DNA of 64,000 nucleotides, taken from contig OZ037900.1 in the NCBI GenBank assembly GCA_964035575.1, forward strand, positions 434,001 to 498,000, in the 5' to 3' direction. This document shows, one piece after another, positions 9,349-40,288 of this stretch. How positions within the stretch are numbered: the stretch's first letter is position 1; every line of letters begins with the position of its first letter. The notes under the pieces were generated by a model that was not told where the DNA came from, made no database searches, and saw only the letters and a program-made list of their open reading frames with translations. A program made the position numbers and the translations under genes. Source of the stretch: Rhynchopus sp. YZ270_cl-10 (taxonomy: Eukaryota; Euglenozoa; Diplonemea; Diplonemida; Diplonemidae).

Positions 9349-9496
9349 CACCGTGCGCTGGTCAGAGGTCTGACCAGGTAATACCTGGTCAGATTTATGA
9401 CCAGGTACACCTGGTCAGATCTGACCAGGTATACCTGGTCAGATGACCAGGTACCTGGTCACATTTACCCGGGTAAGTACCCAGGCGCCCAGGTGA

Positions 9497-9654
9497 CCAG
9501 GTACCCAGGTACCCAGGTACCCAGGTACCCAGGTACCCAGGTACCCAGGTACCCAGGTACCCAGGTACCCAGGTACCCAGGTACCCAGGTACCCAGGTAC
9601 CCAGGTACCCAGGTACCCAGGTACCCAGGTACCCAGGTACCCAGGTACCCAGGT
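9497..9654. repeat. (CCAGGTAC)n satellite, about 20 copies
   Basis: An 8-bp unit containing GGTACC. The same octamer occurs singly near 4665-4690, 5085-5100 and 10048-10065 beside repeat ends, so the array probably expanded from a terminal motif. The overlapping ORFs with PRYPGTQV- or GTWVPGYL-type repeats are artefacts. Confidence 0.9.
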
Positions 9655-10137
9655 CCAGGTCCAGGAACAGGTACCCAGGAACAAGAAAAATGTCGTGAAA
9701 GAGCAACCACAGCTCCACATGACAAACACAAAAGTGTCCAGTCACGTGGGGCATTCATGCACTGAGGAGATAATGATCCAACAATTTACAAGAAAGATTA
9801 CTTAACCTACTGCTGGAAATTGCCAGGTCGTAGTAACACACAAAGTGTGCCTCCGTTCGGGAAGACCGGATATTCTAGAGACCAAAAAGGCCTCAAGAAT
9901 ATCTTCCGGTAGTCAAGGTAGAACCGAGTGAACGGCCCAAGACCCCCGTGGAGAAGTTAAATGTGTAATGCTATCAGGTAGAAACTGCGAACACTGTCTT
10001 ACCCTCCTCAATGCATGGTGGTTGATGTCTTCCACAACAAATTTCCTGTACCCAGGTACCCAGGTTCCCAGACCCACGCAGTACCACGTCGCAGTACTAC
10101 GCAAAATTTACCACCAGACCCTGTCTTCGTGCACCTG

Positions 10138-10830
10138 AAGTACAACGCCGCAGACAGGCCAAACATGCGTTGGACTCAGAGGAATGCCCGCTGTGCAGGT
10201 ATCATGAGAACCAACTCCCAGCAACAAGGGGCGCCTTTTGGCGGGCGTTGTTGAGGGTGTTTGGGGTGCAAAGTTTTCCACAATTTTGATGCGCGGGTAC
10301 AGAAGTGTTGTCTTGTTCTTTCATCTCTAAGAAATGTAAATGTCAATCGCGTTTAACTACCACGAGGGCTTGTTCAGTGAACCCACAAGGGGTCGAAGGG
10401 GGTTGGTTATCCCATATCTATCAAAGGTTGTGTCGACCAGGCTAAACCACTATGTTACGCTGTACGTTGTTAAATCCGAAGAAATAACACTTTAGCAGCC
10501 GCAGGAAGTTTGCTAAAAAGAGTGCCTCACGCTACACAAACCACCACCCGCGATTGACTTAGATGTTATAACAAAGAGAATTCAGAACAAAACAACACCC
10601 TGCCCCATACACACTAAATTGTCATGCTTCAAGAGCATGCCTGGGCCAAAATTACTGTTGACAAAAAAGGCAACAAGACCACCCACAAGGAGTGTGAAAT
10701 GTGCACTGGTTTTCTGGGGGAACGCAATATTTTCTTGTGTCTAGTCCTCCGCAAGCAGAGGACAGACTTTCCGGAAGGTTTCCAAAGTCGAATTTCTTGC
10801 ACTAGCTATGCTCCCTGGGTTAAATGGCAA
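10138..10830 (+). repeat. Diverged copy of the segment at 5150-5830
   Basis: Shares long blocks with 5150-5830, including CAACAAGGGGCGCCTTTTGG and a conserved peptide tract KGNKTTHKECEMCTGFLGE in the 10624-10833 frame. It is broken and has no recognisable full gene. It lies inside element B. Confidence 0.6.
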
Positions 10831-11282
10831 TAGCAGTGACTGACAAAATATTCCCACCCCCCAGGTCTTCGTCCACAAACCCAGAATAGATTGATGTGGG
10901 TGAAGCCTTTCGGATTTTTGAGTTGTTGATAGAATGTCGAAGAGCGGCGAAACTTCTCATCGCAATCACGGATGCAGTTCAGATTTCACGATCCTGTGAT
11001 GAGTGTAAATGTGGGGTGTGATTAAGTTATGGTGTATAAACGCAGTACTGTAAAATCGTTTAATTTGTCACCTACAATTCTTCCGTCCCTAATACAGAAA
11101 GTATCACTCAAGGCTGTACTTTAAAAAGTAGACACAAAAAATCGCCCAACGTAATGTGAGGGGGTGACAAAATTCATTTATGACTGATATTTCAACTCGG
11201 TTAATTAGGGTGTGACAAATTAAACGATTTTCCAGTATTAAAGATGAGGTTAATGAAGAAAGTGGTAATAACTATGCATTGC
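10831..11282. other. Interior of element B, no gene seen
   Basis: Mixed AT-rich sequence without a credible ORF. Confidence 0.5.
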
Positions 11283-11460
11283 CGTGAAATAAGGTAGCCT
11301 TTTTTTCACGCCACAGCGGATTTCCTGCTGCACTAATGGTTCCCAAGCGAAGCGAGGGGACCATGTATAAGTATTTACCGAGCGAAGCGAGGTGAATATT
11401 ATGTGCAGCAGGTAACGAGCACGCCTGCAGAAGTTAAAAAACGGCTGCCTTATGACAAGC
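11283..11460. mobile_element. Small inverted-repeat element (MITE)
   Basis: Ends read GTGAAATAAGGTAGCC and, complemented from the right, TTGTCATAAGGCAGCC, followed by T-runs. The middle carries the doublet CGAAGCGAGG (about 11346 and 11384). No coding capacity. It is nested in element B. Confidence 0.5.
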
Positions 11461-12497
11461 AATATGTAAGTTTATTCCGATTACACAAAGTAGGGGTAGT
11501 CTGCAAGCACCAGCCAAAAAAGAGTGAGATCGGTGATCAGGGAAAACAAACACCACCACACAACAACTTGACAACCACTAAAGGAATGAATCTACACTAG
11601 TGCCTGACAGTTAAACATATTTACATACCTTGTCTTCATCGTAACCTGCGCCTTCGCTGCTGTCAAGGTGCCTTCTCTGGGTACAGTGCCCAGTGTCCAG
11701 TACAGAAAAAAAAAATTCGTCTAAAAAATCGAGTACGCAAAACCACATTTTAGACATTTTAGACCCCTACAGAGGCTCAAAAGTGCCAAATTTTGCTTTT
11801 ATGGCCTCAAATCGTAAAAATTAGCTACTACAGTACACGGGGTATGACCGTATTTTGGCTGAAATTTTGACTTGAAAATTTTTTTCGACATTTGCCCAAT
11901 CTGAGGTTTTCTTTGGATTTTTTGGGCCATTTTATGACCTACCACGGCCAGTTTTGGGCAAAAAAGTTATTTTTTCTTTGGTCAAAAATCGCCTTGTCTA
12001 ACCACTGTTTAGTGTAGGATTGTTCAAATACGTGTATTTGGTGAAACCCCAGATGGTCAAAACACCCGAATTTTGCGTTTTTTTGCATTTTTCGGTGCCC
12101 CAAGACCCAACCCAGAGGCCAAATTTTTCCCGAAAAAAAAAAATTTTTTTTTTGAGATTTTTCGATTTTTTGCTAAGGTGATGCCCATACAAAATGTACA
12201 GGGTGCACACAAATAGCCGTGGAATAAATTCTAGATGCTCTAAACTGCTCGTAAGTGCCTTTACTTGCACTTTTAGCCCAGTTTTGAGGTCATATGGACC
12301 CACCAAGGGCATTTTTGTGTTGTCAAAAAAAAAAAAAAACCTGGTCACAGTGGCCAGAGCTCGCGCTAAAGTCCATCCCTCATCCCGGGATTTTTGGGGG
12401 TTTTGGTAGGAACGTTTTTTTTTTGCAGTACGGGGATTTCATTAAGAAACCAGAAGTTCTAATATTGTTGAGTAAGACCACCACATAGTGGACTTGC
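11461..12497. other. Interior of element B, no gene seen
   Basis: Contains A/T-runs and short overlapping ORFs without coding character; about 11700-12400 has a few imperfect direct repeats of AAAATTTTTT type. Confidence 0.5.
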
Positions 12498-12620
12498 ATA
12501 TACATGTGACCCCTCCGTGGAACGCAATTGGCTCGGAAAGTCAAAAGAAAGAGGAGAAAAAAAAAAAAGAGAAAAAAAAAAAAGTTGGTTACCGTGCGCC
12601 TGCGGCGCTGCCTGTTCCCT
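12498..12620 (-). repeat. 120-bp pyrimidine-rich dispersed repeat
   Basis: On the minus strand: GGGAACAGGCAGCGCCGCAGG, then CGCACGGTAACCAAC, a long pyrimidine tract, CTTTTGA, then CCACGGAGGGGTCACATGT. Two further copies lie on the + strand, at 34757-34880 and 46212-46335. Similar blocks with poly-pyrimidine and a CACGGNGGGGTCA end recur only inside TIR elements here. Confidence 0.7.
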
Positions 12621-12639
12621 TCCAGTTTCTACAGGCAAA

Positions 12640-13120
12640 CACTTGCCCCCTTTACCTTACACTGACGGGTTTTGACCAAAACCAAGAACTTGTCCATTTC
12701 GGCAAATTGACCCCACCACAGAACGGACGGATTCCGGAAATGCAAATGCCGGTGTTTTCGCGCATTTTCATGTTTCAAGACGTCAGGATCAGGGAGAGAA
12801 AATCTGGTTGTGGGATTTACCTTGGCCCTCTTTACCCACATGGATTTTGACCAAAACCAAAAAATTGGCCATTTCGGCAAAGTGACCCCACCACAGCGCG
12901 GACGGATTCCGGAAATTCCAATCGCGGTGTGTTTTGGGGCTGAAAACCCACTGATTTTCAGGAGAAAAATTGCTTCCAAATCTCGGAATTTTCCGAATTT
13001 TCCTGAAAATGACCCTTGTTTACGAGTATGGGTTCATATTTTACGAAAATTTAAGTCACTAAAATTTTGTCCATTTTTCCGTATATACCCCACCACAAGC
13101 CGGGATTGGCCCGGAAATGC
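12640..13120. repeat. Two diverged tandem copies of a TTTTGACCAAAACCAA repeat
   Basis: 12668-12760 and 12845-12930 share TTTTGACCAAAACCAA, ATTTCGGCAAA-TGACCCCACCACAG and GGACGGATTCCGGAAAT. They are distantly related to the GACCCCACCACTGCACGGGC repeats at 13550, 38900 and 39170. Located within element B. Confidence 0.6.
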
Positions 13121-13393
13121 CACAAAACGGGGTTTCCGGGCCTCCCCAGCTAACCTTTTCAAGGAACGTTTTTCCGTACCCGAAATCCATTTTTTCCCCA
13201 TTTTTTCCCATAATTAGCGCGACCACTGACAGTGGCCAAATACCCGGTCACTGACCAGGTATACCTGGTCATGACCAGGTATACCTGGTCAATACCTGGT
13301 CATGACCAGGTGTACCTGGTCAATCTGACCAGGTCAAAACCTGGTCATATTACCTGGTCAACTGACCAGGTATCCTCTGACCAGCGCACGGTG

Positions 13394-14160
13394 TATAGTA
13401 TTGAAATCGATGTGGGGGGGGAGTAAAGGGTCAATTTTACAAAACCAGATTTTGAGGAAAATTTTAGCCGAAAATGGGCCCCGCGTATAAGCAACCGGGC
13501 TCATATTTCTCAAAATTTAAGTGGTCAAAAAATTGTCCAATTTTCGAGATTGACCCCACCACTGCACGGGCGGAGCCCAAAAATGCAAATAAGGACCCTT
13601 TTTAATTTGTTCTCTTGAAATGTGTAATTTCATGTTTTCGCGAAAAAAATAACAACTGATCCCTACAAGGGTTGAAGGAAGGTGGTTGAAAACAACAATA
13701 ACAACAAGGACAAGTAATTGCTAAGAAAAAACGGGGTGTGCTGTGGAAAACTCCGCGCGATTTTCAAAACCACCGTAGCATCCTGGCGATTTGCTGGAGG
13801 TGCTGATGTGCCTGGTGTGATCGATGTGTTGTAGTCTGTGCATTCTGTGTTCCTTCCGCACTGCTCCAACGACGACGACAATGTGGGGAGCCTGTGGACA
13901 AAAACGAGCTGGACCACGCCGAGCCTGCCGAGCCGACGTCCAACAACGCTCTCGAGCGGATGGTGCTGGACGAAGAGGACAGCCCCCCTTCTTGAACGTT
14001 TCAGATGCTGGCGTCCCAGTGGGTCTGGCAGTGTACGAAGAGCGTTAGGATACCTGCAGAAGAGCAGAATGCTGGGCGTGTTGTAGATTATTTCTACAGG
14101 ATGGAGTTCCACATCACACCCCGTTTTTTTTCCGATAGCAATTACTTGTTTTTTTTTTGT
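13394..14160 (+). repeat. Right part of the interrupted repeat; carries a decayed acidic-tail ORF
   Basis: Matches 39002-39760 (same direction) and, from about 13620 on, 27500-28065 (opposite direction). Across copies the frame PAETTSNNALDQMVLDEEDS is best kept at about 39530-39598 and 27670-27740; at 13920-13990 the same DNA is shifted. It is probably the 3' end of a transposon gene with an acidic C-terminus. Confidence 0.65.
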
Positions 14161-16443
14161 TTTGTTCCGACCGCCGCGTTTTGTTTAAGCATTTGGTTTC
14201 TTCTTGTTACCCTTTACGTTCGAACCAGTACAAGAACGACTGTACTTTATCGTTTGAAAAAGGGTGAAAGAAGCGGTTAAATAGCGTCTAAATAACATTT
14301 TTTTTTTATTTTTTTTGGGGGAAAAGGGGGGCTCAAAATGATGCACATTACGTGGTAAAGTGTGTCCGCGAACAGGCTTTTCTGTGATTATCTAAAGGGA
14401 AAAGCGCGCATCGGGGGGAGGGGAAAGTTGCTAAAAAAAAAAAAGACAAGACAAACCTAAATTTAAGCCTCACATTACTTAAAGTCATCTTGAAACACAA
14501 CAAAAAGGGGGAGACTTTTTAAGATAGTTGCATCTTACGAAAGACAGCGATCCATCTTTGTGGGGGGAAAAGGCGTTCGCCTATATTTGGAATAAGTCCC
14601 CAAACAAAAAAAAAGCAAGCGAACACAAAAGAAAGCTTTGCAAGCAAACAAAACCCTGTCTCTAAGACAAGTAAATGTATCTCCCGTTCTGAAAAACATA
14701 CCCATTTCTTGTGGAAAAAAAAAATCGTAAAAAAAAAAAAATGTTTGGAATATGCTCAGTTTTGTCACCCCTACCCCCCTTTTTTGTTCGTTGTGTATGT
14801 GTGGAATAATCGAAGAGAGAACTCGGTTCTGGGAACACAAGCACCATACTAAAGTGCTGTGGTTTTAGCTTTTCAATCCATTTTTCAAATAAAAGAAAAA
14901 GAAAAAGAAAACACTGAATAATAATTAGTGCAAAACGTGGCCCTTTTTCACGGAAAAGTTTCGTTTTAACGCTCTCAACCCCTGTTTTTTGCTTCTTCTT
15001 TTTGTCATAGCGACTATCACCATTTTTTTTTCAAAAGAAAAAGACTGGGTAAGGATTGCTGGGTGGTTACATACATACGCATTTAACCCTCAGTAACTCG
15101 GAGTGACCACGTTCACTAATATTGAGTAACGCTTTTTTAAAGGGACCAAATTGTTTTTGTGAACCCTACATGACTTTTTCGTACAAAAGAGATAAGAAAC
15201 ACACAGCACTCAGCACTCAGCAACCCATTGTGTGCACAGAACCACAAAACCACCTGAATTTCTGTGACCTGATGTCCCCTCATTTAGTAATAACCACCAC
15301 CACCCTCACCCCCACCTTTTTTTTTGCACAACCCATTTCAAACCCAAAGACAACAAAAATGACCCCTTTTTTATCATCCAAAAACCCCCCTCCCTTTTTT
15401 GATAGTTTGAAAAACTTAGTCGTATTTAGCATTTTTCTTCTTCGTTTTTCCTTCATCCTGAATACGATCATTTTCCCCCCTCCTTTTTTTATATTTTTTC
15501 TTTTTGCACAAAAACAGCGTGTCTTTACCACCCATCACCCTCGTTGAACAGTCTCTTTGCCCTGAAGTGCACATAAAAAAACAATAAGCAAATTCCTTAA
15601 AACAACGATTCCTGCAAAAGTACACCACAGGCGTCTTTAAGAATCCCCCAGAAGGAGACGGTAATTTCAAAAAAAAAAATCCCACAATTTTTTTTTGGGG
15701 GGAGAGATATACGTTACCAAGAACAGAATGGTGAAAAAAAAGAGGGGAAAACGACACATGAAAAGAAAAATCTGAACAATTTTTCCCCTACAGTAACACA
15801 AAGTTTTTTTTTTGTTTTTTTTTGTTTTTTTTTTGGAAGATTTGTTGCACAAAAAGTATGCGCCATTTCTCTGCCCCTTTTGTTTCGTGCTTTATTTCCT
15901 TAGGGGCTAACTGGCCCACACTAAAAGAACAAAGCAATCAGAACTGCTTTGCCACGATTCATAGATTCTATCACCATATTTTCCCACAATAAGGGGTGTG
16001 AAAGGAGAGGGGAGAGGGCAGGGAGTTGTCGAGATGAAAGCAGTGGGGGGTGGGGACCCCCCGCTGTGCTAGACAATGTTTCCCCTCTGATTGGCTCACT
16101 GCACGCACCCCTCACCCCCCAACGACCCACAATCACCCACTATTCATTCTGTCTTCTAGAACGTATGGGGGGGAAAAAACGCTGGCAAAAGCATCGTTTT
16201 GTGGAGTTCGGCAACCTTTCCGAATCAGAGAGTCACTCAAACCACGGATTTTTCACCCTATATGCCAGCGTTGACTTGATCATTCCGCCCACAATATCGA
16301 CCCACGGAAATTCTACGAAAAAGAGGACTTGAAATACAAAGCCCTATCGTGACAGTACCTTTGGGTTGGTGACTGGTGCACCGTGGGGTAGATCAGAAAA
16401 ACGCTGCTGGTGTTTGGGAAAATCTTTGTGAAAGTTATTTTTT
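14161..16443. other. Non-coding, homopolymer-rich
   Basis: No ORF with convincing coding character; many A/T-runs and a few C-rich stretches. A degenerate CTAAGC-type repeat lies near 14458. The stretch 15949-16332 is open on the + strand, but its composition is not protein-like. Confidence 0.55.
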
Positions 16444-16515
16444 TTTCGATAAATTGTTGGAGTAGTGTAGTTGCCTCGGTTGTGTTGCCAACAGTCGTGC
16501 AATCTCCACTGTCTG
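16444..16515 (+). repeat. Short dispersed repeat (TTGTTGGAGTAGTGTAGTTG family)
   Basis: GATAAATTGTTGGAGTAGTG, then TAGTTGCCTCGGTTGTGTTG, then CAATCTCCACTGT. Four + strand copies: here, 30105-30166, 31449-31517 and 61785-61848. TGGAG...CTCCA at the ends and TTGC...GCAA inside could pair, so an RNA hairpin is possible. Each copy follows a T-run. Confidence 0.75.
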
Positions 16516-16967
16516 TTTTTTTTTGTCTGACATGAAAAGCGATTCTTCAGCTTCGTCGTTTCACAATAGATGAATACAGACACATAAAAACCCCCACACC
16601 AAGCCTTCCCAAGGAATCTTTTTTAAAGTGCAAAAAATCAAAAGAGAGAAAATGTTTAAGTATGACCAGCTCCTGCTGTCCTTGGAAGAAAAGAAAAAAA
16701 AACAACAACAACAAAACACATCACAGTGCGCACAATGGCTGTGGCTCCCACAGAAGCACGACAACTCAACTTAGTTAGATTGAAGGGGGGGGGGTGCGGC
16801 GGGGGGTAAGTGCACGACACTACTAAGAGCTGTTCGGGGGTGGGGTGGTGGGGGTAACACGCTGCGAGAACATCAACACTTTCCCTTCCCAATTAACCCT
16901 GTTGTTTTGTGTTTAACTGCATGGATTCTCAGTCGGCAGGACCACGTGGCTTGATCCACGCGAGCCC
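16516..16967. other. 3' flank of the Ataxin-2 gene
   Basis: No gene seen; holds the 3' region of the minus-strand gene that ends at 16968. Includes an A-run with CAACAACAAC near 16705 and a G-run near 16790. Confidence 0.5.
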
Positions 16968-19900
16968 TTACGCGTTTGGTCTGAACTGCTGTTGCTGTGG
17001 TGTTGCCTGTGCGTGAGTGTGGGTTGGACAATGAAAGAGTAAAGCGTTGAGAAGATCAACCAAAAACAATAAGAACATACCCGTGCATATGGGACCCCTG
17101 GGCTCATGCCCGGCGCGGTCTGTGCGTTGACCTGCTGTGGGAACTGCATGTTCGGGTCCGGTCTGCCCTGCTGGTACTGCTGCGTTTGCTGCTGTTGCTG
17201 CTGCTGGTAGTACTGCTGCTGCTGTTGTTGTTGCTGGGGGGGGAATTGCTGCTGGTTTGGCTGGAAGTTGGACTGCCCCGCAAAGGGGTGCTGTGGGTTC
17301 TGCTGGTTGAACTGTTGTTGCTGCGCAGGCTGCTGTTGCTGCATCTGCGGCTGCTGGTACATGCCCTGCGGCTGCCCCTGTGGAGACTGCATGGGCTGCT
17401 GTGCCTGTGCGTACTGCGGCTGGTACCCCTGTGGTGGGTACTGCTGCTGCTGCGCAGGCTGCTGGAACGGAGGTGCCGGGGACTGTGTGAACCCTGGCTG
17501 TCCGAACTGCTGTGCCGCGGGTTGTGGTTGTTGCCCCTGTGCCGGCTGGCCCTGTGGTGCCTGTTGCGGCTGCCCCTGCTGTGCAGGCTGCTGCTGCTGG
17601 TACTGCTGCGGGTACGCAACCTGCTGCATTTGCTGCGGGTTCTGCTGCTGGTATTGTGAGGGGTTGTATTGCTGCTGCTGCGGGAACTGCTGCTGTCCCG
17701 GCTGGCCCTGCTGGAGGATCTGCTGCTGTTGGTACTGCTGCTGTTGTTGATGCTGCTGTTGCTGCATTTGCTGTTGCTGTGGAAAATAGGGTACAAAAAT
17801 GAAGAAAGACAGAACATACCATGTGCTGGTGCTGGTGCGCCTGCTGAGGTTGTTGATGTTGCGGTTGCTGGGGGCTGGGCTGCTGCGCTTGCTGGTGGTT
17901 GGGGGTGTTGTGCGGCATGTAGTTCGTATGTGGGTTGAGCGGGGGCTGGCTGGGCGCCTGTGGCTGTGCCTGGGGCTGCTGCTGGAGTTGTTGTGGCTGT
18001 TGCCCCTGAGGCTGCTGTCCCTGTGGTGGCTGGGACTGCAGTTGCTGTGGGGCCTGTTGCTGCGCCTGCTGTTGCGCCGCTTGTTGCTGTTGTTGCTGCG
18101 GGAAGTGCGGTGTCACGGGCTGCACACGCGGCACTGGTGCCATCCCTGCACGCTGCGGCTGGTTAGGCGCCATGTTCTGCCCACTGGCACCATACGTACG
18201 ATCCTCTCTGCCGCCTGTCTGGTCTTCCTCCTCGTCCCAGTAGTGGTCATCGCCCTTCCACTCGTACTTGAAGGCTTCTGCGTCTCCGGGGATGGGAGGG
18301 CGTTCGTTGGTGGGGTTTGCGCCCTGGTTCTGTCCCTTGTTCTGGTATTTGCGCAGCTTCTCGTAGATGGCGGTCGAGATGACGGAGCTGATGAACTTCT
18401 CCTGCACGCAGAGGATTTCGTCCTTGCCTTCGCCCAGTGGTGGCTTCCACTCGGGGGTGACGGGTGCGACGGGCTGGGGCTGCTCGGGTTCAGGCTCGGG
18501 TGACGCCTTGGCAGCCTCGCCGTCAGCAGGGTTGCCGAAGGGCTGGGCGTTCGGGTTGAGTTTGTCAACGTCGTCCTTGTTGGCTGCAGCGGGCGCTGCC
18601 TTGTCTGCAGGTGCCTTGGCTGTCTTGGACGGTGCGGGTGCCGCAGCCTCCTCCTTCTCGGTCGTCGGTTTTTTTTTGAACAACTTGTTCAGTTCGTCTC
18701 GCGACTGTAATGTGAAAAGTGGTGGCAATGCAAACACAGCAGCATACCTTCATAAAGTCTGCTATTTCCTTCGCCTTGCTCGTTTTCCCCTCCCGTGCCG
18801 GGAGTGCCGTCTTGCCACCGGGCTTGACTGCTGCGGGCTTCGGGTTGACCTGTCTCTTGCTTGCATCTGCGATGGGCACAACGCTGACCGCTGCTGCTGC
18901 GGGCTGTGCCACGGGCGAGCCCTGTGCTGCAGGCGGTGGGCGCTGCTGTGGGGGTGGGGGTGATGGCTGTGGGGCGACTGCCGTGCCTTCGTTGTAGCAG
19001 TCTGCAGGGAGCACGGCTGCACCGGGTGTGAGGGGCGTGCCTCCTCCGTCCTGGCGTACCTGTGGTGGTGTGGTGTGGTTTTAATGCCTAGTGAGGGTAA
19101 TTCTTGCGCAGAATATGGCCCTTTGGTGTGATGTGGTGTGGTGTTGTTGAAAGCAGTTGTGGGCAGCTCCTGAGAGCGAAACGCCCACAGTGGTGTTGTG
19201 TTGTGAGAATGCAGAGGGGGGGAAGCATCTATACCTGGAGCTGCCCTTCTTGTCTGTACTGAAGGTGGTGGTGGTGGTTGAGAACTGACGTGGGCACCTG
19301 GGCGTTAGGCCCCACCTGCCCGGCTGGCCCAGGCTGCTGTCCTTGGACGGGCACTGCGAAGAGGGAAAAGATTTGGGATGTAGAAGAAAAGACAAATTGT
19401 AGACAAAGCAAAACAAAAGTTAGAAATATGGTCAACCAACCTTCAAACGTGAAGGATGAGCCTCACGCCAGGATTTTTCGTTGCTCAATTCCCCTTGGAG
19501 GGCGATTGGTGACCGTATCGGAACTATTTCTCCTTGTAGGTATAAAAAATTGCAGGAAAAAAAACTAAACAAACCTGCGCCTGCTGGGACTGGCCCTGCG
19601 CCGTTTGGCTGAGGGTTCTGCTGCTGCACAACCATGCCCGGCTGGCCGCGAAGGTGAGGCGGGACGTACTGGTTCTTGCTCTCCTCCTGGTTCTTGAGCT
19701 GCTGCGACGAGAGCGGGTCCGACTCGCGGATGACAGCAGAGTGGAGCGCCTCTTCGTCAAAGTCTGCAGCCCAGTCGCCCACGGTCGAGTCGAACTGCCC
19801 GCCCTTGCCTCTGTTGCTGCCCTCAATTTCTTTTGCCTTTTCTTCGGCCCACTTAAGCTGCTCCTTCGACATCTTGCTGACGTCCAACACTGTCGAGTAG

Positions 19901-23111: not shown

Positions 23112-25202
23112 TCACTCCTTCTTGGTCATTGCTGCAGTGAAGAACACAAAGGGGTACGGGTTCTTGGTGGTCTCAGGGTCTGACACAGAGGACTCATCGA
23201 TCTGCACCTTCCAGTTCGGGAAGAACCCTGCAATGTCTGTGTTGGAGGTGTGGAAGGGGGGCCCTTCTGTGCGGACAGCAAGCTGGCGTTCGATACCCTC
23301 GAAGAAGTAGTGGGCCCCCGGGGCTGTCCAGCTGTCCATGACCGCTGCGTAGTCGGCACGCAGAGAGGGGTTGATCGCAACGAAGGAGGCTCTGTCGTAG
23401 ACGAAGGTGCATGAGGTAAGTGCAGCCGCTTCGCTGGCAAGGTGCTCTGGGCTGCCGGGGACGAACTTGAAGAAGTCGCAGTCCACAACATGCACACGCT
23501 TCTGGACGTCTTCGGGTGCAGATGCCACCCTCTTGCGGAGTTGTTCGACCGCAAGCTTCGCACCTTCCAACGCAATGACATTCATACCAGCGGCTGCGAG
23601 GTACAGCACCACAGCGCTGTCACCACACAGCGGCACAAACGCAGTGCCTCCTGCAACAACAGGGTCTGTCCCGACAGCCTTGGCCACGCTGGCCACATTC
23701 GCTGCAAATGGTGCAACAGGGCCACTCTCGGGTCCCTGCCAGCCAGTCTCACCCTCCTCCCAGTGCTGGTTCCAACGGTCAAGGGTGTACGGAACAGGGG
23801 CAGGTGTGTCCTTCTTGGTCATTGCTGCAGTGAAGAACACAAAGGGGTACGGGTTCTTGGTGGTCTCAGGGTCTGACACAGAGGACTCATCGATCTGCAC
23901 CTTCCAGTTCGGGAAGAACCCTGCAATGTCTGTGTTGGGGGTGTGGAAGGGAGGCCCTTCTGTGCGGACAGCAAGCTGGCGTTCAACACCCTCGAAGAAG
24001 TAGTGCGCCCCCGGGGCTGTCCAGCTGTCCATGACCGCTGCGTAGTCGGCACGCAGAGAAGGGTTGATCGCAACGAAGGAGGCTCTGTCGTAGACGAAGG
24101 TGCATGAGGTAAGTGCAGCCGCTTCGCTGGCAAGGTGCTCTGGGCTGCCGGGGACAAACTTGAAGAAGTCGCAGTCCACAACATGCACACGCTTCTGGAC
24201 GTCTTCGGGTGCAGATGCCACCCTCTTGCGGAGTTGTTCGACTGCAAGCTTCGCGCCTTCCAACGCAATGACATTCATACCAGCGGCTGCGAGGTACAGC
24301 ACCACAGCGCTGTCACCACACAGCGGCACAAACGCAGTGCCTCCTGCAACAACAGGGTCGGTCCCGACAGCCTTGGCCACGCTGGCCACATTCGCTGCAA
24401 ATGGTGCAACAGGACCACTCTCCATTTGCTGCCAGCGAGTGTCACCCTTCTCCCAGAGCTGGTTCCAACGGTCAAGGGTGTACGGAACGGGGGCAGGTTT
24501 GTCCTTCTTGGTCATTGCTGCAGTGAAGAACACAAAGGGGTACGGGTTCTTGGTGGTCTCAGGGTCTGACACAGAGGACTCATCGATCTGCACCTTCCAG
24601 TTCGGGAAGAACCCTGCAATGTCAGTGTTGGAGGTGTGGAAGGGGGGCCCTTCTGTGCGGACAGCAAGCTGGCGTTCGATACCCTCGAAGAAGTAGTGCG
24701 CCCCCGGTGCCGTCCAGCTGTCCATGACCGCTGCGTAGTCGGCACGCAGAGAAGGGTTGATCGCAACGAAGGAGGCTCTGTCGTAGACGAAGGTGCATGA
24801 GGTAAGTGCAGCCGCTTCGCTGGCAAGGTGCTCTGGGCTGCCGGGGACAAACTTGAAGAAGTCGCAGTCCACAACATGCACACGCTTCTGGACGTCTTCG
24901 GGTGCAGATGCCACCCTCTTGCGGAGTTGTTCGACTGCAAGCTTCGCGCCTTCCAACGCAATGACATTCATACCAGCGGCTGCGAGGTACAGCACCACAG
25001 CGCTGTCACCACACAGCGGCACAAACGCAGTGCCTCCTGCAACAACAGGGTCGGTCCCGACAGCCTTGGCCACGCTGGCCACATTCGCTGCAAATGGTGC
25101 AACAGGGCCACTCTCGGGTCCCTGCCAGCCAGTCTCACCCTCCTCCCAGTGCTGGTTCCAACGGTCAAGGGTGTACGGAACAGGGGCAGGTGTGTCGGAC
25201 AT
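23112..25202 (-). CDS. Triple thiopurine S-methyltransferase-like protein (three fused domains)
   Basis: 696 aa in one exon, three repeats of 231 aa (period 693 bp). Each has the TPMT-family signature: the Trp-rich N-terminus PYTLDRWNQHWEEGETGWQG, the SAM-binding stretch GGTAFVPLCGDSAVVLYLAA and GMNVIALEGA, and the motif FVYDRASFVAINPSLRADYA. TPMT-family enzymes use S-adenosylmethionine to methylate thiols or other soft nucleophiles (thiopurines, thiocyanate, selenium or arsenic species) in the cytosol. A single domain is the usual form. Repeats 1 and 3 are nearly identical. Repeat 2 differs mainly near its start (LWEKGDTRWQQMES for HWEEGETGWQGPES). The near identity extends to synonymous sites, indicating recent in-frame duplication or conversion. 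The true substrate cannot be read from sequence. Confidence 0.85.
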   Translation of the reverse strand: MSDTPAPVPYTLDRWNQHWEEGETGWQGPESGPVAPFAANVASVAKAVGTDPVVAGGTAFVPLCGDSAVVLYLAAAGMNVIALEGAKLAVEQLRKRVASAPEDVQKRVHVVDCDFFKFVPGSPEHLASEAAALTSCTFVYDRASFVAINPSLRADYAAVMDSWTAPGAHYFFEGIERQLAVRTEGPPFHTSNTDIAGFFPNWKVQIDESSVSDPETTKNPYPFVFFTAAMTKKDKPAPVPYTLDRWNQLWEKGDTRWQQMESGPVAPFAANVASVAKAVGTDPVVAGGTAFVPLCGDSAVVLYLAAAGMNVIALEGAKLAVEQLRKRVASAPEDVQKRVHVVDCDFFKFVPGSPEHLASEAAALTSCTFVYDRASFVAINPSLRADYAAVMDSWTAPGAHYFFEGVERQLAVRTEGPPFHTPNTDIAGFFPNWKVQIDESSVSDPETTKNPYPFVFFTAAMTKKDTPAPVPYTLDRWNQHWEEGETGWQGPESGPVAPFAANVASVAKAVGTDPVVAGGTAFVPLCGDSAVVLYLAAAGMNVIALEGAKLAVEQLRKRVASAPEDVQKRVHVVDCDFFKFVPGSPEHLASEAAALTSCTFVYDRASFVAINPSLRADYAAVMDSWTAPGAHYFFEGIERQLAVRTEGPPFHTSNTDIAGFFPNWKVQIDESSVSDPETTKNPYPFVFFTAAMTKKE

Positions 25203-28065: not shown

Positions 28066-28073
28066 AGAACAAA

Positions 28074-32097: not shown

Positions 32098-33083
32098 CAT
32101 TCGATTCTACTGAATAGAAGGTATAGGGTGCACTAAATGTACCCAAAATTTAAAAGAAAAAAACGAGAAAGGTTGGCAGGATGTAACCTTAAGCATCTAA
32201 CTGCAGAATACAAAGCTCTCATGTATTTATTTTTGTAAAAAGCGTTTTAAACCAAAAAAATGCATTTTAAAAAAACGCACCCGTGTTCTTGCTGTAAATG
32301 CAGAATAATACTAATAACACTGTTTCCGTCTCTCTTTATTCTGTAGGTTCTTTGAAAAAAAAAACATTTCTTTTTGATTTTTTGAAAACTTGGTTGTATG
32401 AGTGTACGAGAGGATTACTCTACTACTTTTGTTGAATTCTTGGGGACTCTGTATCATTGAAGACTTTGATAGGCTGATTGACGCTGAGCTTGGTAGGTGG
32501 TAATCCATGGGTGATCCATGGGTGGTCGGTTTAAATCGGTGGTAAAAAGTGAAAAATGGGGCATGCCAGTCCTGCGTCAATCAGCCTACTTGAGGATGTG
32601 ATTTTTTTTCCCTGAAAAAGACTCTTTTTTCCCCCACAAAAGTTTGGATGGAGCAATAAAAGGGAAGTTGAAAAGTGCAAACGCATCACCGTTCGTCGGC
32701 GGACGCAGGCAACTGGGAAAATAAAAGATGGAAAAGGATTAAACAAAAAGGAAAGAAAGACTGGGACAGTGTTTCCGCGCACACCCCACGCTTTTAACAT
32801 CGTTCTGAACACACACCTTTCCTCTCTGTCCTTGGAATGCTTTGCTATGCTGGACCTTTTTAGTACTGTTTGGAGAGCCAAATCAACAATTGGGGGCAAA
32901 TTCCTGAACGTTATGACCACCCTGATTTTGACCCGAATTTGGCGGTGTTGGACGTCTTATTTGGAAGTTGCTACCGGGCCAAAAGGGGTGACATGGTACA
33001 AAAAGGGGCGCAATACATTACGCAAAAAGACACACACCGTTTTCGTTACACTGTAGTTGTTAAATGCAGACACCTCATTTACT
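32098..33083. other. Intergenic, no gene supported
   Basis: 32465-32580 contains a weak inverted pair (GGCTGATTGACGC at 32470 and GCGTCAATCAGCC near 32574), possibly a small MITE. 32680-32715 has the GCATCACCGTTCGTCGGCGG motif shared with 31050 and 62390. No gene. Confidence 0.5.
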
Positions 33084-35205
33084 GGGGGGGAGCTAATACA
33101 AGTACCGGGTACTTGTATTGAGCGGGTAAAACTAATAGATCCGGGTTTTTCAAAAATAAAAAAGGTGATGGGGGTACTTGTATTAAAAACCTTTTCCCTG
33201 TACATTTTGTATGGGGGGAAAATTATTTTTTTGTATGGGCCAACGCCAGGGATTTTTCTAATTGTGGATTTGGATATGGATTTCAGGAAAATAAAAAAAT
33301 TCCCTGAAAAAAGATCGGGTCTTTTGTTTGTGCGCTCAAAGCCGGGAAAACAAAAAGGTGAAAAAATGTGTTACACTGAAGTACGGTTGTTGTGGTTAAT
33401 TGAGTACTCAAAGAAACAAGCAAGCTTCTGTTTTTTTCAATCCGTTTTGTTTGCCCTGCAGCGCTGCCTCCAATCTTTTTAGAATTGACAACAAGTTGTT
33501 TTATCAAAAAAAATCCCTGTTTTTCCCTACAGCAATTTCAGGTACATTCTACCCCACCCCACCCCCAGAGAGTTTCGCCTGTGGGATGCGATCGATCAAC
33601 GCGATCAAATAAGTGAAAAAAGTGAGGGGGGGAAAAATAAAAATCTCGGATTTTCGAGAAAAAAATTGGTCCTGCAGACAGTTGCTGTAGTTGTTGTGGG
33701 TGCAGATGTTCGCGTCAGTTGCAGTCAAACGTCCAGCATCGGAGACATTTGAGGTTGTGCACAAGAAGAAGGAGAAGACGTGTCAATCGCATTCAATTAT
33801 GAGGGTTGGAAGACGGAGGAGATCTCAAATGTTGCGTACCGTGGCTTCGCCAGAAGCTTTCGCTTTAGCAAAATATGGAATCAAAATTGATGGCAATAAT
33901 GTATTGAGGCGCCGATTTCCCGCGCGGGCATTTTCCTGATGCTAATTACCAACGACAGTGCCATTTTATGTCAACATTTTTTAGAAATGTTGCGTACCGT
34001 GGCTTCGCCAGGAACCTTTGGGTGCCTTGACTACCTTTTCTTACATAAATGTACTGAGGTTACTGATAAGGCTGACACCCACGATGGATCGTGATTCACT
34101 CTCCCCACCAGCCTTCTACGATTTTGTGCATCAGAGGGAAGAAGCCTCACCTCCCTGCACTGGCAGGGAGTCGCGCGCGCGACGCGCTCGCAGCGACCGC
34201 TTTTACGGGGGGAAAGCTCGGGACCCCAAATCACCCCGTTTTGGCCAAAAGGGGTGATTGGCAAGAGCCCTGTCAACATGTCGAAAAAGTTTTGTGGGGG
34301 GAAACAAAATTTTTTCCCGCAAAAAAGTCAAAAAACAGCCCAAAAACTGTATCAAAAAAACAGGGAATTTTTTGGATTTGGATTTCGGAATTTGGCCAAA
34401 AAGGGTCGGATTTAGAGATATCCTTGGCCAACGCCTTAGCAAAAATCCGAAAAATCGAGAAAAGAGAAAAGGTGTGAAGCAGGCTTCGCGCTAACTTTTG
34501 GAAAAAATCTGAAAAATCATGTTTCGGGCCCAAAAAAACGCACTTCAAATAGTTGCGACGGGTAACGTCTGGGGTGAAAAAACAGTGTTTTGTGGCATTT
34601 CTGAGCCAATCCCGCGCTGTGGTGGGGCATATTCGGGAAAATGGACAGAATTTTAGTGACTTAAATTTTCACAAAATATGAACCCAGACTCCTAAACACG
34701 GGGCATTTTCAGTCTGAAAACCCAATTTCAGATGAAATTGTGGTGTTTTTGACTGGGAACAGGTAGCGCCGCAGGTGCACGGTACCCAACTTTTTTCGTT
34801 TTTCCTTTTCTCTTTTATCTGCTTTCTTTTGATTGCGCGAGCTGCTTGCTCTCCACGGTGGGGTCACATGTGGGTACAAAAACACTCTAAAGTACCCTTA
34901 CTATGAAATATGAGATTCTCTGGTTTTGGTAAAGAAACCCCGGTTTGCAAAAAACGCACCACAAAAATATCCAAAAATCCCGGGCCAAGGGCCAACAATT
35001 AGCGCAAAGCCGAAATAGAAAAAAAAAATTCTCGATTTTTGTGGGTAAAAATTGCTGGGAAAATTTTTTTGGCACCACCTGCTAAGAAAAACGTACACAA
35101 AAGTGGGGGGTACTTGTATTAAAAATATAAATTAATTTAAATCGAAAAACCCGGGGGGCTTGTATTTGCAGGGGTACTTGTATTACCCGGGGGTACTTGT
35201 ATTAG

Positions 35206-35212
<7 letters not shown>
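33084..35212. mobile_element. TIR element with TACTTGTATT palindromes and G/C-run ends (element I)
   Basis: Left end GGGGGGGAGCTAATACAAGT, right end ACTTGTATTAGCCCCCCC. The left subterminal region contains the palindrome AATACAAGTACC/GGGTACTTGTATT. Single TACTTGTATTA motifs lie at 33174, 35109, 35176 and 35193. The right end runs straight into a 39-base C-run and then the next element. The interior holds a segment shared with 27286-27495, two copies of TTGCGTACCGTGGCTTCGCC (33833, 33989) and one 120-bp pyrimidine repeat (34757-34880). No intact gene. Confidence 0.65.

Positions 35213-35244
<32 letters not shown>
35206..35244. repeat. 39-base C-run at the junction of two elements
   Basis: It lies between the right end of 33084-35212 and the TA that starts the 5-kb element. 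A second C-run (22 bases, 42337-42358) closes the chain of elements; a G-run sits at 36676-36698. Confidence 0.9.
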
Positions 35245-35660
35245 TACACGGTGCGGTAGTCAGCAAAATGACAACCTAAATGACAACCTCAATGACATGT
35301 CATAATTATGACAACCCTATAGGTTGTCAGTGACAACCTAGGGGTTGTCAAATGACAACCTGAGGTTGTCAAATGACAACCTATAGGTTGTCATTTGACA
35401 ACCTTATGCATGTGAAATGCCTTGCAACAGCCATTTTTATTGGAAATGTGGGAGGTTGGGGGGTTGGGAGGTTGGTGGTTACCTGTTTGATTGTTGATTG
35501 TTGAATGTCCATGCACTGTAAAAATTTATTTAAAAAAAAAGGAGGAGATGGGGGGGTGATTTCTGTTTTTGTTGATTTCATGATGATTTGGGTCCCTCAC
35601 CCCCTTTGTAAAAATCCCGCCCATACACATATGCAGGAGTCAAGTGACTGACGTGCCTGA

Positions 35661-36593
35661 CTAGTGCCATTGAACACTCTCTTCGGAGTCCTCCTTGTTT
35701 GCCTCTGTGTCACTGGCCTCAGCAAGAGTCTCCTCAGGATCCTCAGGAGCCTCCTCAGGAACTTCGTCCTCCCCAAACACGGACATCCATGATGCCCCGT
35801 CCATTTTCACAGAGAGTGCGTTGGGGGCCCCCACGGGTATGTCCACACGAGTAATTCCCACCTGCACCATCACGGAAGTCTCCCTCGTCGAATCAAGGGA
35901 CAGAGTGCTGGGGACATCATACGTACCGTCGACCACCCCGATGCTGGCCCCGATGGCAAGGCGCTCCCGCTTCAACGCAAAGCTCAGCTTGTGACCCTGC
36001 AGCGTCGGGTCGGTGCAAAACACGGTGCAACCGTTTTCAATAAAAATTCGGTGCACTTTTCCACCCGGTGTCATCTTTTCCCCCATCACCGTGATGATAG
36101 GCCATACGGAAGCGCGGGGGCCTCTTTTGATGACCCCCTTGGCCGCCGCTGTCCCTGTTCCCTCGTTGACAATGGACGTGTACAAGCACGCCATGTCCAT
36201 GTCCCCCAGCGACGCCCCTTCCCGAACTACAAGCGCCAGACGCTTGTACGCCTCCGTCTTCTTTGCGGCGTCCGATATCCCAGGCAACTTCCGCAGCACG
36301 AGTCCGCCAAACACAGTCTCCTTCACTGCCCCTCCGTTCCCGGAGATGCGGAGGCTGTACACACCTTTGGCAGCATCAGCCTCTGCCCTGTTCTTCGCCT
36401 GTGTGATGGCAAATTTTTTGCCAAGTTCAGCTGCCACTGAGCCATCATTGGACTTGAAGTCCACCTTGAAACATTTCGAAATCAAGGCCCTCGGTGCAGG
36501 GTGACTTAAGGGGGTTGCACCGGCGGGGTTCTTCGCTTTGTACACATAAACAGTACAAAAGTCGTTTGCAATCGTCGTCTGCTTGCTTGTCAT
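35661..36593 (-). CDS. Unknown 310-aa protein of element E with acidic tail
   Basis: The start is set at the ATG at 36591-36593; the open frame continues upstream only through a Pro-run and low-complexity DNA. No family recognised. The body (residues 10-265) is a mix of beta-prone stretches (SFALKRERLAIGASIGVVDG, later TSVMVQVGITRVDIPVGAPN) without transmembrane segments. The last 40 residues are strongly acidic (DEVPEEAPEDPEETLAEASD). It follows the 618-aa gene on the same strand after 238 bp. Its 3' end lies within the inverted arm, so a truncated copy of the last roughly 45 codons sits at 39775-39880 in reverse. It may be an accessory transposition or DNA-binding protein, but that is inference from position. 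Confidence 0.6.
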   Translation of the reverse strand: MTSKQTTIANDFCTVYVYKAKNPAGATPLSHPAPRALISKCFKVDFKSNDGSVAAELGKKFAITQAKNRAEADAAKGVYSLRISGNGGAVKETVFGGLVLRKLPGISDAAKKTEAYKRLALVVREGASLGDMDMACLYTSIVNEGTGTAAAKGVIKRGPRASVWPIITVMGEKMTPGGKVHRIFIENGCTVFCTDPTLQGHKLSFALKRERLAIGASIGVVDGTYDVPSTLSLDSTRETSVMVQVGITRVDIPVGAPNALSVKMDGASWMSVFGEDEVPEEAPEDPEETLAEASDTEANKEDSEESVQWH

Positions 36594-36831
36594 GATATGA
36601 TGTGGTGTGGTTTTTGGATCCTGGAAAGAGGGTGCGACTAATGGGATTGCGATGGAACAAAAACGAGTGCTATGGGGGGGGGGGGGGGGGGGGGGAGGGG
36701 GATTCATTCCTTTGTATAGATTCGCGGTAAACAAACAAACAAACAAACAAACAAATAGTGGAGCACATTCTAGAGTGGCAACACTGAACAAACAAAAAAT
36801 ACAACAACAACAACAAAATGTAAACAGGCTA

Positions 36832-38688
36832 CTACTCTCCGTGCATGTTGTACATATGATTTTCTACGGCTCTCGGTGAGGAAAACACGTCCATACAAAT
36901 GGGACAATGTTTCTTGGAAATATCCTCTGAGTGATTACACAAAAGATGCTGGCTAAAACCTCGCTTGGAAACATTGCGTTCGCATATGGGGCATTCCTGC
37001 CTGCATGCACAAGTAATTGAAGGGCGGTGATTTGCGTCGTAGTGACAATAGAGCTTGTGCGCGGTATTGAAATTTGTTTGTGTTCCAAGTCTGGTACAGA
37101 TGGTGCATATATAGCCTTCGCCCGCATCCTCTGATTCTGATTCTGGTTCTGGTTCTGATTTGCTTTCCACAACAGGGGGTACCCTCCATGATGGCTCCTT
37201 ACACACGCAAATCTTCTTCACCCTACCCTCATCATCAGGGTTGGACAAGAATTTTTGCCCCCACCCTGTTCGGCGTTTTATGTGTTTTCCCAGTCCAGCA
37301 CGTTGCAGTCGCTGCACCAAGTTAGTGCACGCGGTTTTCCAAGTCTCATCTACTACTGTTATGCATTTGCACAGCCACAACGTATCAAACTCCCAAAGTA
37401 CGGGAAGCGCGTCCGTTAGGGGGCCCAGTGGTGACATCGGCACTCCATGTTTAGTTTCAATTTCGAATGCCAAGAAATCGCGTTCCATTGTATTTGGGGA
37501 GGTGCATGCCGTCCAACGCTTCCTCTCCCCATTGGCATGCTCGAACAGTTCGTCCGACACGGTCACTCTGTGTGCGTCTTCTTCATCGAACCAATGTTCG
37601 ACTGAGTGCATGTACGTGCTTTTCGTAACCCCTGGATTCGCCCATTCAAGCAAATACACGGTAAGGTGGTAACACAGTAATGCGAACAAGTAATCTTTTG
37701 CGTATGGCCTCGACTCGTTCGGGTTTGGGTTTGGTGTGTGGAAGAACCTCACTGGTATGTCACTATACCGAAAGTAGTAAAGGCCCTGCATGGCCTGGCA
37801 CAATATTAGTTTGCTCCCCTCATTTTCCTGAATGAGGCTGCGTAGGATAGTTCGTGACTGCGTGCCTGTCATATTGCCGTCCTGCTTACCAAGGATCTTT
37901 GTTTCTACGTCGCGGGCACCCGGTATGGTTTTAATGAGCAAACGCATCACCCCCTTGGTATCATGCAGCATCGGAGTTAGCGTGTAACAAGGTTGCTCGA
38001 ATCGCCCGGCAATGCTGCACTCGAATCCACAGGCGTCCATTTCTTGAAGGCTCAAGCGGGTGCAGTTGTGCAGGGCAGACAATCTGTCGTCCAGGTCGGT
38101 CGCACAGAACGCACTTCTATGTCCCCCGGGGCCGACACCTTTGAAGAGACTTGCCAACTCGGCATGATCTCCCCCGATTTTGTAGTACAGGAGGGAAAAT
38201 TCGAAGCCTCCCTTCCTGAGGATGCGCTCTTGAACGTTTGAGAGCTGTGGCAGAAAGGTAAAAACCCACCAGTCGTGGAAGGTGGATTTTTTTTTGTCAG
38301 CGACCGTCAAAAAGTTTGTCGCTTCAAGCCCGTTCGTCGCAGCAACTGCAAGCCTCTTCCGTGCAAGTTGGGACCTGAAGGCACTGTACGGTGAATACCC
38401 ATCCCACGTGATTATAATGGTCGGGAAGTCACCGCCCAGTCGCAGGGGGAAATACTTCAGAAGCAAAGAGAGCGATTTCTGCACATCACCTACCTGAGCC
38501 TCTGCCTTATCCTTAAACGGCTTCTCCCGCTGCTGCAACGTCTTGTACGCTAGGCCCATTGACGCCCCGGTCTCAGCTTTCACCAATTTTCCGATCTCTT
38601 CGCAGTCACGCATCGACAGTCCTAGCTGGACTCTGTTGCGACCTATGATGTTCCCCACCACCCGCACTGTTTCATGATCAATTCCCAT
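36832..38688 (-). CDS. Candidate transposase with three C-terminal C2H2-like fingers
   Basis: 618 aa, taking the ATG at 38686-38688; the frame is open 33 codons further into a repeat, where it is unlikely to be coding. Conserved-looking acid residues sit in strand-like settings: IITWDGYS (D96), LYYKIGGDH (D174) and TPMLHDTKGVMRLL (D243). This KxGGDH...HDxKG spacing recalls large RNase-H-like transposon ORFs of protists and basal animals, but I cannot place it in a named superfamily. The C-terminus (530-618) has three fingers: CTICTRLG..H..H, CPICERNV..H..H and CPICMDVF..H..H. An acidic linker (SEPEPESESED) comes before them. The minus strand upstream reads GGTAAGT, a possible 5' splice donor in the leader. 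Confidence 0.6.
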   Translation of the reverse strand: MGIDHETVRVVGNIIGRNRVQLGLSMRDCEEIGKLVKAETGASMGLAYKTLQQREKPFKDKAEAQVGDVQKSLSLLLKYFPLRLGGDFPTIIITWDGYSPYSAFRSQLARKRLAVAATNGLEATNFLTVADKKKSTFHDWWVFTFLPQLSNVQERILRKGGFEFSLLYYKIGGDHAELASLFKGVGPGGHRSAFCATDLDDRLSALHNCTRLSLQEMDACGFECSIAGRFEQPCYTLTPMLHDTKGVMRLLIKTIPGARDVETKILGKQDGNMTGTQSRTILRSLIQENEGSKLILCQAMQGLYYFRYSDIPVRFFHTPNPNPNESRPYAKDYLFALLCYHLTVYLLEWANPGVTKSTYMHSVEHWFDEEDAHRVTVSDELFEHANGERKRWTACTSPNTMERDFLAFEIETKHGVPMSPLGPLTDALPVLWEFDTLWLCKCITVVDETWKTACTNLVQRLQRAGLGKHIKRRTGWGQKFLSNPDDEGRVKKICVCKEPSWRVPPVVESKSEPEPESESEDAGEGYICTICTRLGTQTNFNTAHKLYCHYDANHRPSITCACRQECPICERNVSKRGFSQHLLCNHSEDISKKHCPICMDVFSSPRAVENHMYNMHGE

Positions 38689-38689
38689 T

Positions 38690-39214
38690 TTTTTCAACTT
38701 ACCTTCCTTCACCCCCCCTGTAAGGGCAACCGTAGGTGAAGTAAGGTATAGTATTGAAATCGATGTGGGGGGGGAGTAAAGGGTCAATTTTACAAAACCA
38801 GATTTTGAGGAAAATTTTAGCCGAAAATGGGCCCCACGTATAAGGAACCGGGCTCATATTTCTCAAAATTTAAGTGGTCAAAAAATTGTCCAATTTTCGA
38901 GATTGACCCCACCACTGCACGGGCGGAGCCCAAAAATGCAAATAAGGACCCTTTTTCAACTTACCTTCCTTCACCCCCCCTGTAAGGGCAACCGTAGGTG
39001 AAGTAAGGTATAGTATTGAAATCGATGTGGGGGGGGAGTAAAGGGTCAATTTTACAAAACCAGATTTTGAGGAAAATTTTAGCCGAAAATGGGCCCCACG
39101 TATAAGCAACCGGGCTCATATTTCTCAAAATTTAAGTGGTCAAAAAATTGTCCAATTTTCGAGATTGACCCCACCACTGCACGGGCGGAGCCCAAAAATG
39201 CAAATAAGGACCCT
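38690..39214. repeat. Two tandem copies of the repeat that element B invaded elsewhere
   Basis: 38690-38953 and 38954-39214 each contain TTTTTCAACTTACCTTCCTT, the junction GTAAGGTATAGTATTGAAAT, and GACCCCACCACTGCACGGGC. They differ at few bases and act as uninterrupted references for 9288-9348 plus 13394-13620. Confidence 0.85.
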
Positions 39215-39770
39215 TTTTAATTTGTTCTCTTGAAATGTGTAATTTCAAGTTTTCGCGAAAAAAAATAAGAACTGATCCTACAAGGGTTGAAGGAAGGTGG
39301 TTGAAAATTACAATAACAACAAGAACAAGTAATTGCTAAGAAAAAAACGGGGTGTGCTGTGGAAAACCCCGCGTGATTTCGAAAGCACCGTAGCATCCAA
39401 ACGATTTGCTGGAGGTGCTGATGTGCCTGGTGTGATCGACGTGTTGTCGTTTGTGCATTCTGTGCTTCTTCCGCACTGCTCCAACGACGACGACACTGCG
39501 TGGGACCCTGTGGACAAAAACGAGCTGAAACACGCCGAGCCTGCCGAGACTACGTCCAACAACGCTCTCGATCAGATGGTGCTGGATGAAGAGGACAGCC
39601 CCCCTTCTTGAACATTTCAGATGCAGGCGTCCCAGTGGGTACGAAGAGCGTTATCATACCTGCAGAAGAGCAGAGTGCTGGGTGTGTTGTAGGTTACTTC
39701 TACAGGGTGGAGTTCCACAGCACACGCCGTTTTTTTTCCGATAGCAATTACTTGTTTTTTTTTTTTTTGT
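39215..39770 (+). repeat. Acidic-tail relic inside element E
   Basis: Same-strand relative of 13620-14150. Its frame reads TAWDPVDKNELKHAEPAETT, then SNNALDQMVLDEEDSPPS and a stop at 39611. Probably the 3' part of an older transposon gene. Confidence 0.6.
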
Positions 39771-40288
39771 CCTGTCATGGATGTCCGTGTTTGGGGAGGA
39801 TGAAGTTCCTGAGGAGGCTCTTGCTGAGGCCAGTGACACAGAGGCAACCAAAGAGGACTCCGAAGAGAGTGTTCAATGGCACTAGTCAGACACGTCAGTC
39901 ACTTGACTCCTGCATATGTGTATGGGCGGGATTTTTACAAAGGGGGTGAGGGACCCAAATCATCATGAAATCAACAAAAACAGAAATCACCCCCCCATCT
40001 CCTCCTTTTTTTTTAAATAAATTTTTACAGTGCAGAGACAGCAAACAACAATCAACAATCAAACAGGTAACCACCAACCTCCCACATTTCCAATAAAAAT
40101 GGCTGTTGCAAGGCATTTCACATGCATAAGGTTGTCAAATGACAACCTATAGGTTGTCATTTGACAACCTCAGGTTGTCATTTGACAACCCCTAGGTTGT
40201 CACTGACAACCTAGGGGTTGTCTCGCACCGAGGGTTGTCCTTTGACATGTCCTTGAGGTTGTCATTTTGATGACTACCGCACCGTGTA

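Follow-up and report, generated by a model that had tools for sequence, protein, structure and literature searches.

The elements reported here recall several described systems. En/Spm-CACTA transposons combine conserved tips with variable subterminal repeats bound by TNPA, with motif subtypes occurring within soybean (PMC2613891, in the portion available). RAGL and Transib transposons have target site duplications (TSDs) of 5 bp (PMC7204232, excerpt), and the CMCT clade, which includes ESTA of fungi, is marked by a RAG1-type RNase H DDE/D transposase, H(3-4)H and C(2)C motifs, CA..TG termini and TSDs of 2-5 bp (PMC12730594, excerpt). Among the papers listed by our literature searches, none deals with dyads specific to each family in a comparable lineage of RAG1 fold.

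Here we describe such a lineage, with a predicted RAG1-like fold, from a 64,000-nucleotide stretch of Rhynchopus sp. YZ270_cl-10 contig OZ037900.1 (the window) and the genome around it. Its likeness to En/Spm-CACTA, as portrayed in the available portion of PMC2613891, lies in CAC tips, element-specific subterminal motifs in direct and inverted orientation, two proteins, many gene-free copies, and motif subtypes within one species. The subterminal repeats are element-specific in this lineage too; CACTA tips with a 3-bp TSD are not seen, the tips being other than CACTA and the TSDs mostly 2 bp, with TAT once. It differs further in its near-perfect dyads as motifs, in the half-site within the terminal repeat and in the lack of a Pfam transposase match. 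With Transib, RAGL/ProtoRAG and RAG1 the lineage shares the predicted fold and the CAC tip, and with RAGL the two genes in one element; the tip is close to the RSS heptamer, being CACNGTG in classes A, CAGG, C, E and I. It differs from Transib and RAGL in its TSDs, none of which was 5 bp among the 12 insertions read on both sides, and in its dyad arrays; the class A second gene has no Pfam match. CA..TG termini with TSDs of 2-5 bp, as in the CMCT clade, are present, but because C(2)C occurs only in D, E and F and the 5-bp TSD of RAGL and Transib was not seen, we call the lineage CMCT-like with a predicted RAG1 fold rather than a member. By description it is nearest in habit to ESTA, which in the excerpt of PMC12730594 has a TA-type 2-bp TSD, as several classes do here, and a kinship to RAG1 that, as here, is visible only by structure-aware comparison; compared with ESTA as described there, class A lacks the C(2)C motif.

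How related transposons avoid cross-mobilisation, and how recombinases evolve in step with the ends they act on, are difficult questions to address in a genome with few close relatives. One genome with at least eight transposase subfamilies and readable end codes makes cross-recognition directly testable, and a RAG1-like fold with a CAC tip and an inner key bears on the origin of two-part signals such as the RSS.

Two elements in the window

The initial annotation placed two transposons with palindrome arrays in the window, and their ends and arrays were borne out as follows.

9349..13393, no strand: CAGG-class element (4-kb element), perfect 20-bp end repeat, TAT flanking both sides
9370..9459: left array of the 4-kb element, TGACCAGG/CCTGGTCA dyads
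9480..9660, plus strand: (CCCAGGTA)n array directly inward of the dyads, common to the copies read of B, E and G
9607..10861, plus strand: inner non-coding module of the 4-kb element, 96% identical to a class E element over 1,246 bp, parts of it conserved as islands in B and G
13252..13386: right array of the 4-kb element, dyads as in the left array (TGACCAGG/CCTGGTCA)
35247..40286, no strand: 5-kb element, a class A transposon with two genes and inverted ends CACGGTGCGGTAGTCAG, TA flanking both sides
35270..35410: left array of the 5-kb element, TGACAACC/GGTTGTCA half-sites and full dyads
35661..36593, minus strand: class A second gene, about 310 aa when P0002 is read from its likely ATG
36832..38688, minus strand: class A transposase, 618 aa from ATG (the length of P0003), RAG1-like predicted fold, C2H2-like zinc-finger tail
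38689..39310: repeat inserted in the 5-kb element in two tandem copies, which supply an empty site for the 4-kb element
40127..40268: right array of the 5-kb element, dyads as in the left array (TGACAACC/GGTTGTCA)

The repeat that hosts the 4-kb element is present in two uninterrupted copies inside the 5-kb element, and comparison of these intact copies with the copy holding the 4-kb element reveals the empty site and the TAT duplication. No transposase-like frame was found in the 4-kb element. The terminal inverted repeat of the 5-kb element is about 540 bp long, in pieces, and a longer frame of its transposase gains 33 residues from the inserted repeat. Three other class A copies have a dyad spacing of 3.7 kb and a further one of 3.0 kb; in the window copy it is 4.77 kb, the extra length being due in part to the two tandem repeat copies inserted upstream of the transposase. 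A run of at least eight C or G lies within 22 bp of 12 of the 23 distinct class A ends listed (in the window, 35206-35246), a proportion given without a background rate, which hints at a target preference.

The pattern TGACNNNNTATANNNNGTCA has five exact matches in the window (9422, 13252, 13272, 35374 and 40140) and seven at up to one mismatch, against an expectation of 0.07, and a direct count confirms that the ends CACCGTGCGCTGGTCAG and CACGGTGCGGTAGTCAG are alike at 14 of 17 positions. Across the genome (152 Mb, 126 contigs, a palindrome on both strands counted as one site) the exact frame TGAC-N4-TATA-N4'-GTCA occurs at 202 sites, compared with 2 in a reversed control. Chance or a simple repeat as the source of the palindromes was ruled out by these window and genome counts. 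Among the 50 frame matches listed of the 202, 34 have CAGG/CCTG arms, 12 AACC/GGTT arms and 4 imperfectly complementary arms. Complementarity of the arms, for which a genome-wide check had been proposed, is in these 50 sites far beyond the 1/256 of random pairs; the long series of N4 arms envisaged within one frame comes down, in the same 50, to two perfectly complementary classes.

Transposase subfamilies with their own ends and dyads

Genome searches with two of these transposases returned 69 and 60 matching stretches, which merged into 72 loci, with second halves of split copies joined and a 75-residue fragment (C24:911876) left out. The genome holds at least eight related transposase subfamilies, each read so far with its own dyad at its ends; a group H of eight loci consists of fragments. 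Ends and dyads were read in one copy per subfamily, in several copies for A and the CAGG class, and at one end for B and I; those that entered the permutation tests described below were chosen by eye beforehand, from a single copy of each class.

Class A: end CACGGTGCGGTAGTCAG, dyad TGACAACCTATAGGTTGTCA
Class B: end CACGACGGACTAG (single end), dyad TGACAGGTGGTACCTGTCA
Class C: end CACTGTGGCTAGGGG, dyad GGGGATAGGTTATGCTATCCCC
Class D: end CACGGCGGGGTCC, dyad ATTACGTACCCTAGGGTACGTAAT
Class E: end CACGGTGCAGTCTGTC, dyad GAGTCCGACAGTCGGACTC
Class F: end CACGGCGGGGCTGTG, dyad GACAGTGTCACATGTGACACTGTC
Class G: end CACCATGGACTCG, dyad CCCTCGTAATTACGAGGG
Class I: end CACGGTGGCCTTGTTACC (single end), dyads of the form TTGTTAC-GTAACA
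Orphan CAGG class: end CACCGTGCGCTGGTCAG, dyad TGACCAGGTATACCTGGTCA

The six dyad patterns of B to G each gave many sites in the genome and none in the reversed control. Seven of the nine classes have a CAC tip at both ends, and B and I have CAC at the single end read; variants of the tip are CACGG, CACCG, CACTG, CACCA and CACGA. Insertions read on both sides have duplications of TA and CA for A, TA for C, D and F, and CA for E, with G in an A-run, and those of the CAGG class are GT, TA, GC, TAT and one GCAG or G.

The initial annotation had pictured a single dimeric domain reading a fixed TGAC/TATA frame, with N4 as the key. This strict form is now very improbable. The frame is indeed common to A and the CAGG class, whose ends are so alike, and B also has TGAC...GTCA arms, but TGAC half-sites are confined to these three among the nine classes read; the other six (C, D, E, F, G and I) have different frames, with dyads such as GAGTCCGACAGTCGGACTC, GACAGTGTCACATGTGACACTGTC and CCCTCGTAATTACGAGGG unrelated to it. 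That no more than two perfectly complementary arm classes appear among the 50 sites listed of 202, and that the CAGG class has no transposase of its own near the ends listed, also counts against it.

The transposase is predicted to be of RNase H DDE/D type with a RAG1-like fold, which is among the CMCT marks. Foldseek TM-scores of the predicted model to RAG1 were 0.33-0.43 in the ten best rows and 0.40 at rank 1; the model has a mean pLDDT of 74.8, with values under 50 across residues 378-396, the stretch that surrounds the presumed catalytic E. The motif H361-x3-H365, an H(3)H between the second D and the last E, is present in 11 of 11 transposases, and C(2)C in three of the 11 (D, E and F), being absent from class A of the window and the other seven. 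Profile A5 matched no RAG1 chain in the PDB (two chance matches at E up to 10), and its seven members matched four weak Pfam families, neither RAG1 nor transposase; the viral structure library gave no match at E 0.001 or better. With profile A2, zinc fingers account for almost all of the best 60 of 98 PDB matches, and the zinc-finger tail of the transposase resembles C2H2 fingers such as those of CTCF and ZBTB17. At the N-terminus there is at most a hint of a helix-turn-helix, from faint matches to Pfam HTH_3 (E 0.032 in one of seven members) and, in the PDB, to C.BclI (E 1.4).

Seven of the eight subfamilies (A, C, D, E, F, G and I) have a candidate second frame next to the transposase, B having been read in part. 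Homology links the second proteins of D, E and F (phmmer 1e-13 or better, E being represented by one of its two frames). The D-E-F profile weakly detects those of A (probability 73) and C (62), and the class G candidate has no match to the other second proteins (probability 1). The class A protein, P0002, has no Pfam match at E up to 1, and its model (pLDDT 29) is unusable; Pfam scans of two proteins returned no TET/JBP gene. In the copies of D and F that were read, the second-gene region forms a long imperfect inverted repeat (L033 303-2749; L035 4314-7500), which could give rise to long hairpin transcripts.

Linkage to transposases and the terminal half-site

Dyad class had been expected to track transposase subfamily, and it does so closely: the own dyad lies within 8.5 kb at 25 of 27 loci (A 5/6, B 2/2, C 10/10, D 1/1, E 2/3, F 3/3, G 2/2) and a foreign one in 1 of 208 comparisons, the count for each listing (about its first 100 places; exact sites for E and CAGG) being confined to the contigs that it reaches. 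Two of these loci were typed partly from neighbouring dyads (C17:1367678 as C and C13:85101 as G), and without them the own count is 23 of 25. In the single foreign case, at C3:1554468, a cluster of B-type dyads starts about 0.3 kb beyond the own dyad of a class A copy; since this cluster has a partner 3.2 kb further on, it represents a separate neighbour.

A second line of evidence comes from the terminal repeats. In A, CAGG, D, E, F, G and I they contain, from nucleotide 9 to 13 onwards, 7-8 of 8 bases of their own dyad, and in F, G and I this half-site is the start of the dyad array itself. Foreign dyads match the same repeats at 4-7 of 8 bases, always fewer than the own dyad, so that for a single class an own match of 7 of 8 exceeds them modestly; in B (5/8) and C (6/8) the own dyad has no excess. 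In a permutation test that used whole dyads, with no choice of register, the value of the own labels was reached by 2 of 40,320 arrangements for eight classes and 2 of 362,880 for nine. D and F, which are sister branches (tree support 0.947), have the first ten end bases in common, after which each diverges towards its own dyad. Together, the half-site and permutation pattern and the split between D and F are the best sign that dyad array and cleaved end may be read by one protein.

We consider it probable, at roughly 60%, that both elements of the window belong to a cut-and-paste lineage of RAG1/Transib type in which a protein specific to the own dyad pairs the ends and kin mostly move kin. 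The CAC tip, common to the classes, would be read and cut by the RAG1-type active site of the transposase, and a dimeric element-encoded DNA-binding protein would load on its own dyads and the half-site and join two ends. Candidates for this dyad binder are the second protein, as TNPA in En/Spm, and the N-terminal or zinc-finger part of the transposase. Each subfamily's dyad would have changed together with its proteins, and we propose that subfamilies and their gene-free copies would for that reason be mobilised mostly by their own kin. Weighing against this model are TM-scores to RAG1 of no more than 0.43 in the ten best rows, the low pLDDT near the presumed catalytic E, profile searches that reached neither RAG1 nor a transposase family, the modest half-site excess per class and its lack in B and C, the choice of tips and dyads by eye from one copy each, the single ends read for B and I, the unusable model of the class A second protein and the unmatched class G candidate.

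Dyads might instead be regulatory or structural (promoter, silencing or hairpin DNA), with class specificity arising from descent and homogenisation and no role in choosing the element moved. Tandem arrays are commonly homogenised within a family, as such an account would expect, and the CAGG class has spread without a linked transposase, so that matching keys may be dispensable. We nevertheless regard it as unlikely, given that in seven of nine classes a half-site begins at a distance of 9-13 nt from the tip and that transposase-free CAGG copies retain dyads at both ends.

The orphan CAGG class and shared interiors

Far more dyad-bearing copies than transposases are present in the genome. The CAGG end CACCGTGCGCTGGTCAG occurs at 268 places at up to one mismatch, compared with 1 in the control, and the median length among 28 matched end pairs is 3,086 bp. 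The expectation that each class would be paired with its own transposase failed here: of 65 transposase loci, not one is found within 8.5 kb of an end among the 100 ends listed of the 268, all of them exact. The closest, 12.3 kb from a listed CAGG end, is a copy on C89, which was rejected as a partner because its own end and dyads assign it to class I. We also read four elements from the listed end pairs: the three longest, L037-L039, at 4.7-6.6 kb, and L040, whose size is typical. Among their frames of at least 40 residues the query matched only a 32-residue leader from the inserted repeat and a 38-residue stretch (E 0.09), and an autonomous partner in these four was rejected. Forty scored copies of one 261-bp block, from 1,707 first-look candidates, are 99-100% identical, indicating recent spread, and such spread without a linked transposase counts against the end-pairing model that we prefer.

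The CAGG class may have been moved in trans by A, through its ends, or by E, through its interior, with keys that are not exclusive. We hold this, at less than even confidence, as a possibility compatible with own-dyad pairing as the general rule. Pointing towards it are the match of the ends to A at 14 of 17 bases, the interior 96% identical to E over 1,246 bp and the lack of a transposase within 8.5 kb of the 100 ends listed of 268. On the other side, CAGG dyads match neither A nor E, the search for a transposase covered the surroundings of those 100 ends, and the class may have, or have had, a transposase of its own that the assembly lacks, that introns divide, that has diverged beyond the reach of both searches, or that has died out.

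Interiors are shared more widely. Inward of the dyads, the CAGG, B, E and G copies read have first a (CCCAGGTA)n array and then a module that is non-coding. The B and G interiors are nearly identical by alignment despite widely different transposases, and D has pieces; near-identical interiors beside differing dyads indicate that interiors have moved between classes. More tentatively, this may be a RAG1-fold lineage with nine or more mutually orthogonal end codes in one genome, each combining a heptamer-like CAC tip with a swappable dyad key at a near-fixed distance, the keys being replaced wholesale and the interiors moving between classes. If true, such codes would be a natural counterpart of heptamer-plus-nonamer recognition.

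The (CCCAGGTA)n arrays lie at 9480-9660 of the window and at L031 2680-2880, L034 6270-6345 and L036 6260-6316, and their CCAGGTA word also occurs inside the CAGG dyads. A block of 124-130 bp is almost invariant in four dyad classes (window 10716-10844; L031 3697-3820; L034 5099-5228; L036 5331-5457). As a structured RNA this block was rejected, with no Rfam match and a fold energy like that of mononucleotide shuffles (z 0.06 to -1.2). Elsewhere in the window, frames at 49734-56210 repeat at intervals of 5,049 bp (49797-51161 and 54846-56210 are one such pair) and resemble a tandem duplication, and a 696-residue frame at 23112-25202, whose neighbouring frames recur every 693 bp, is probably internally repeated sequence.
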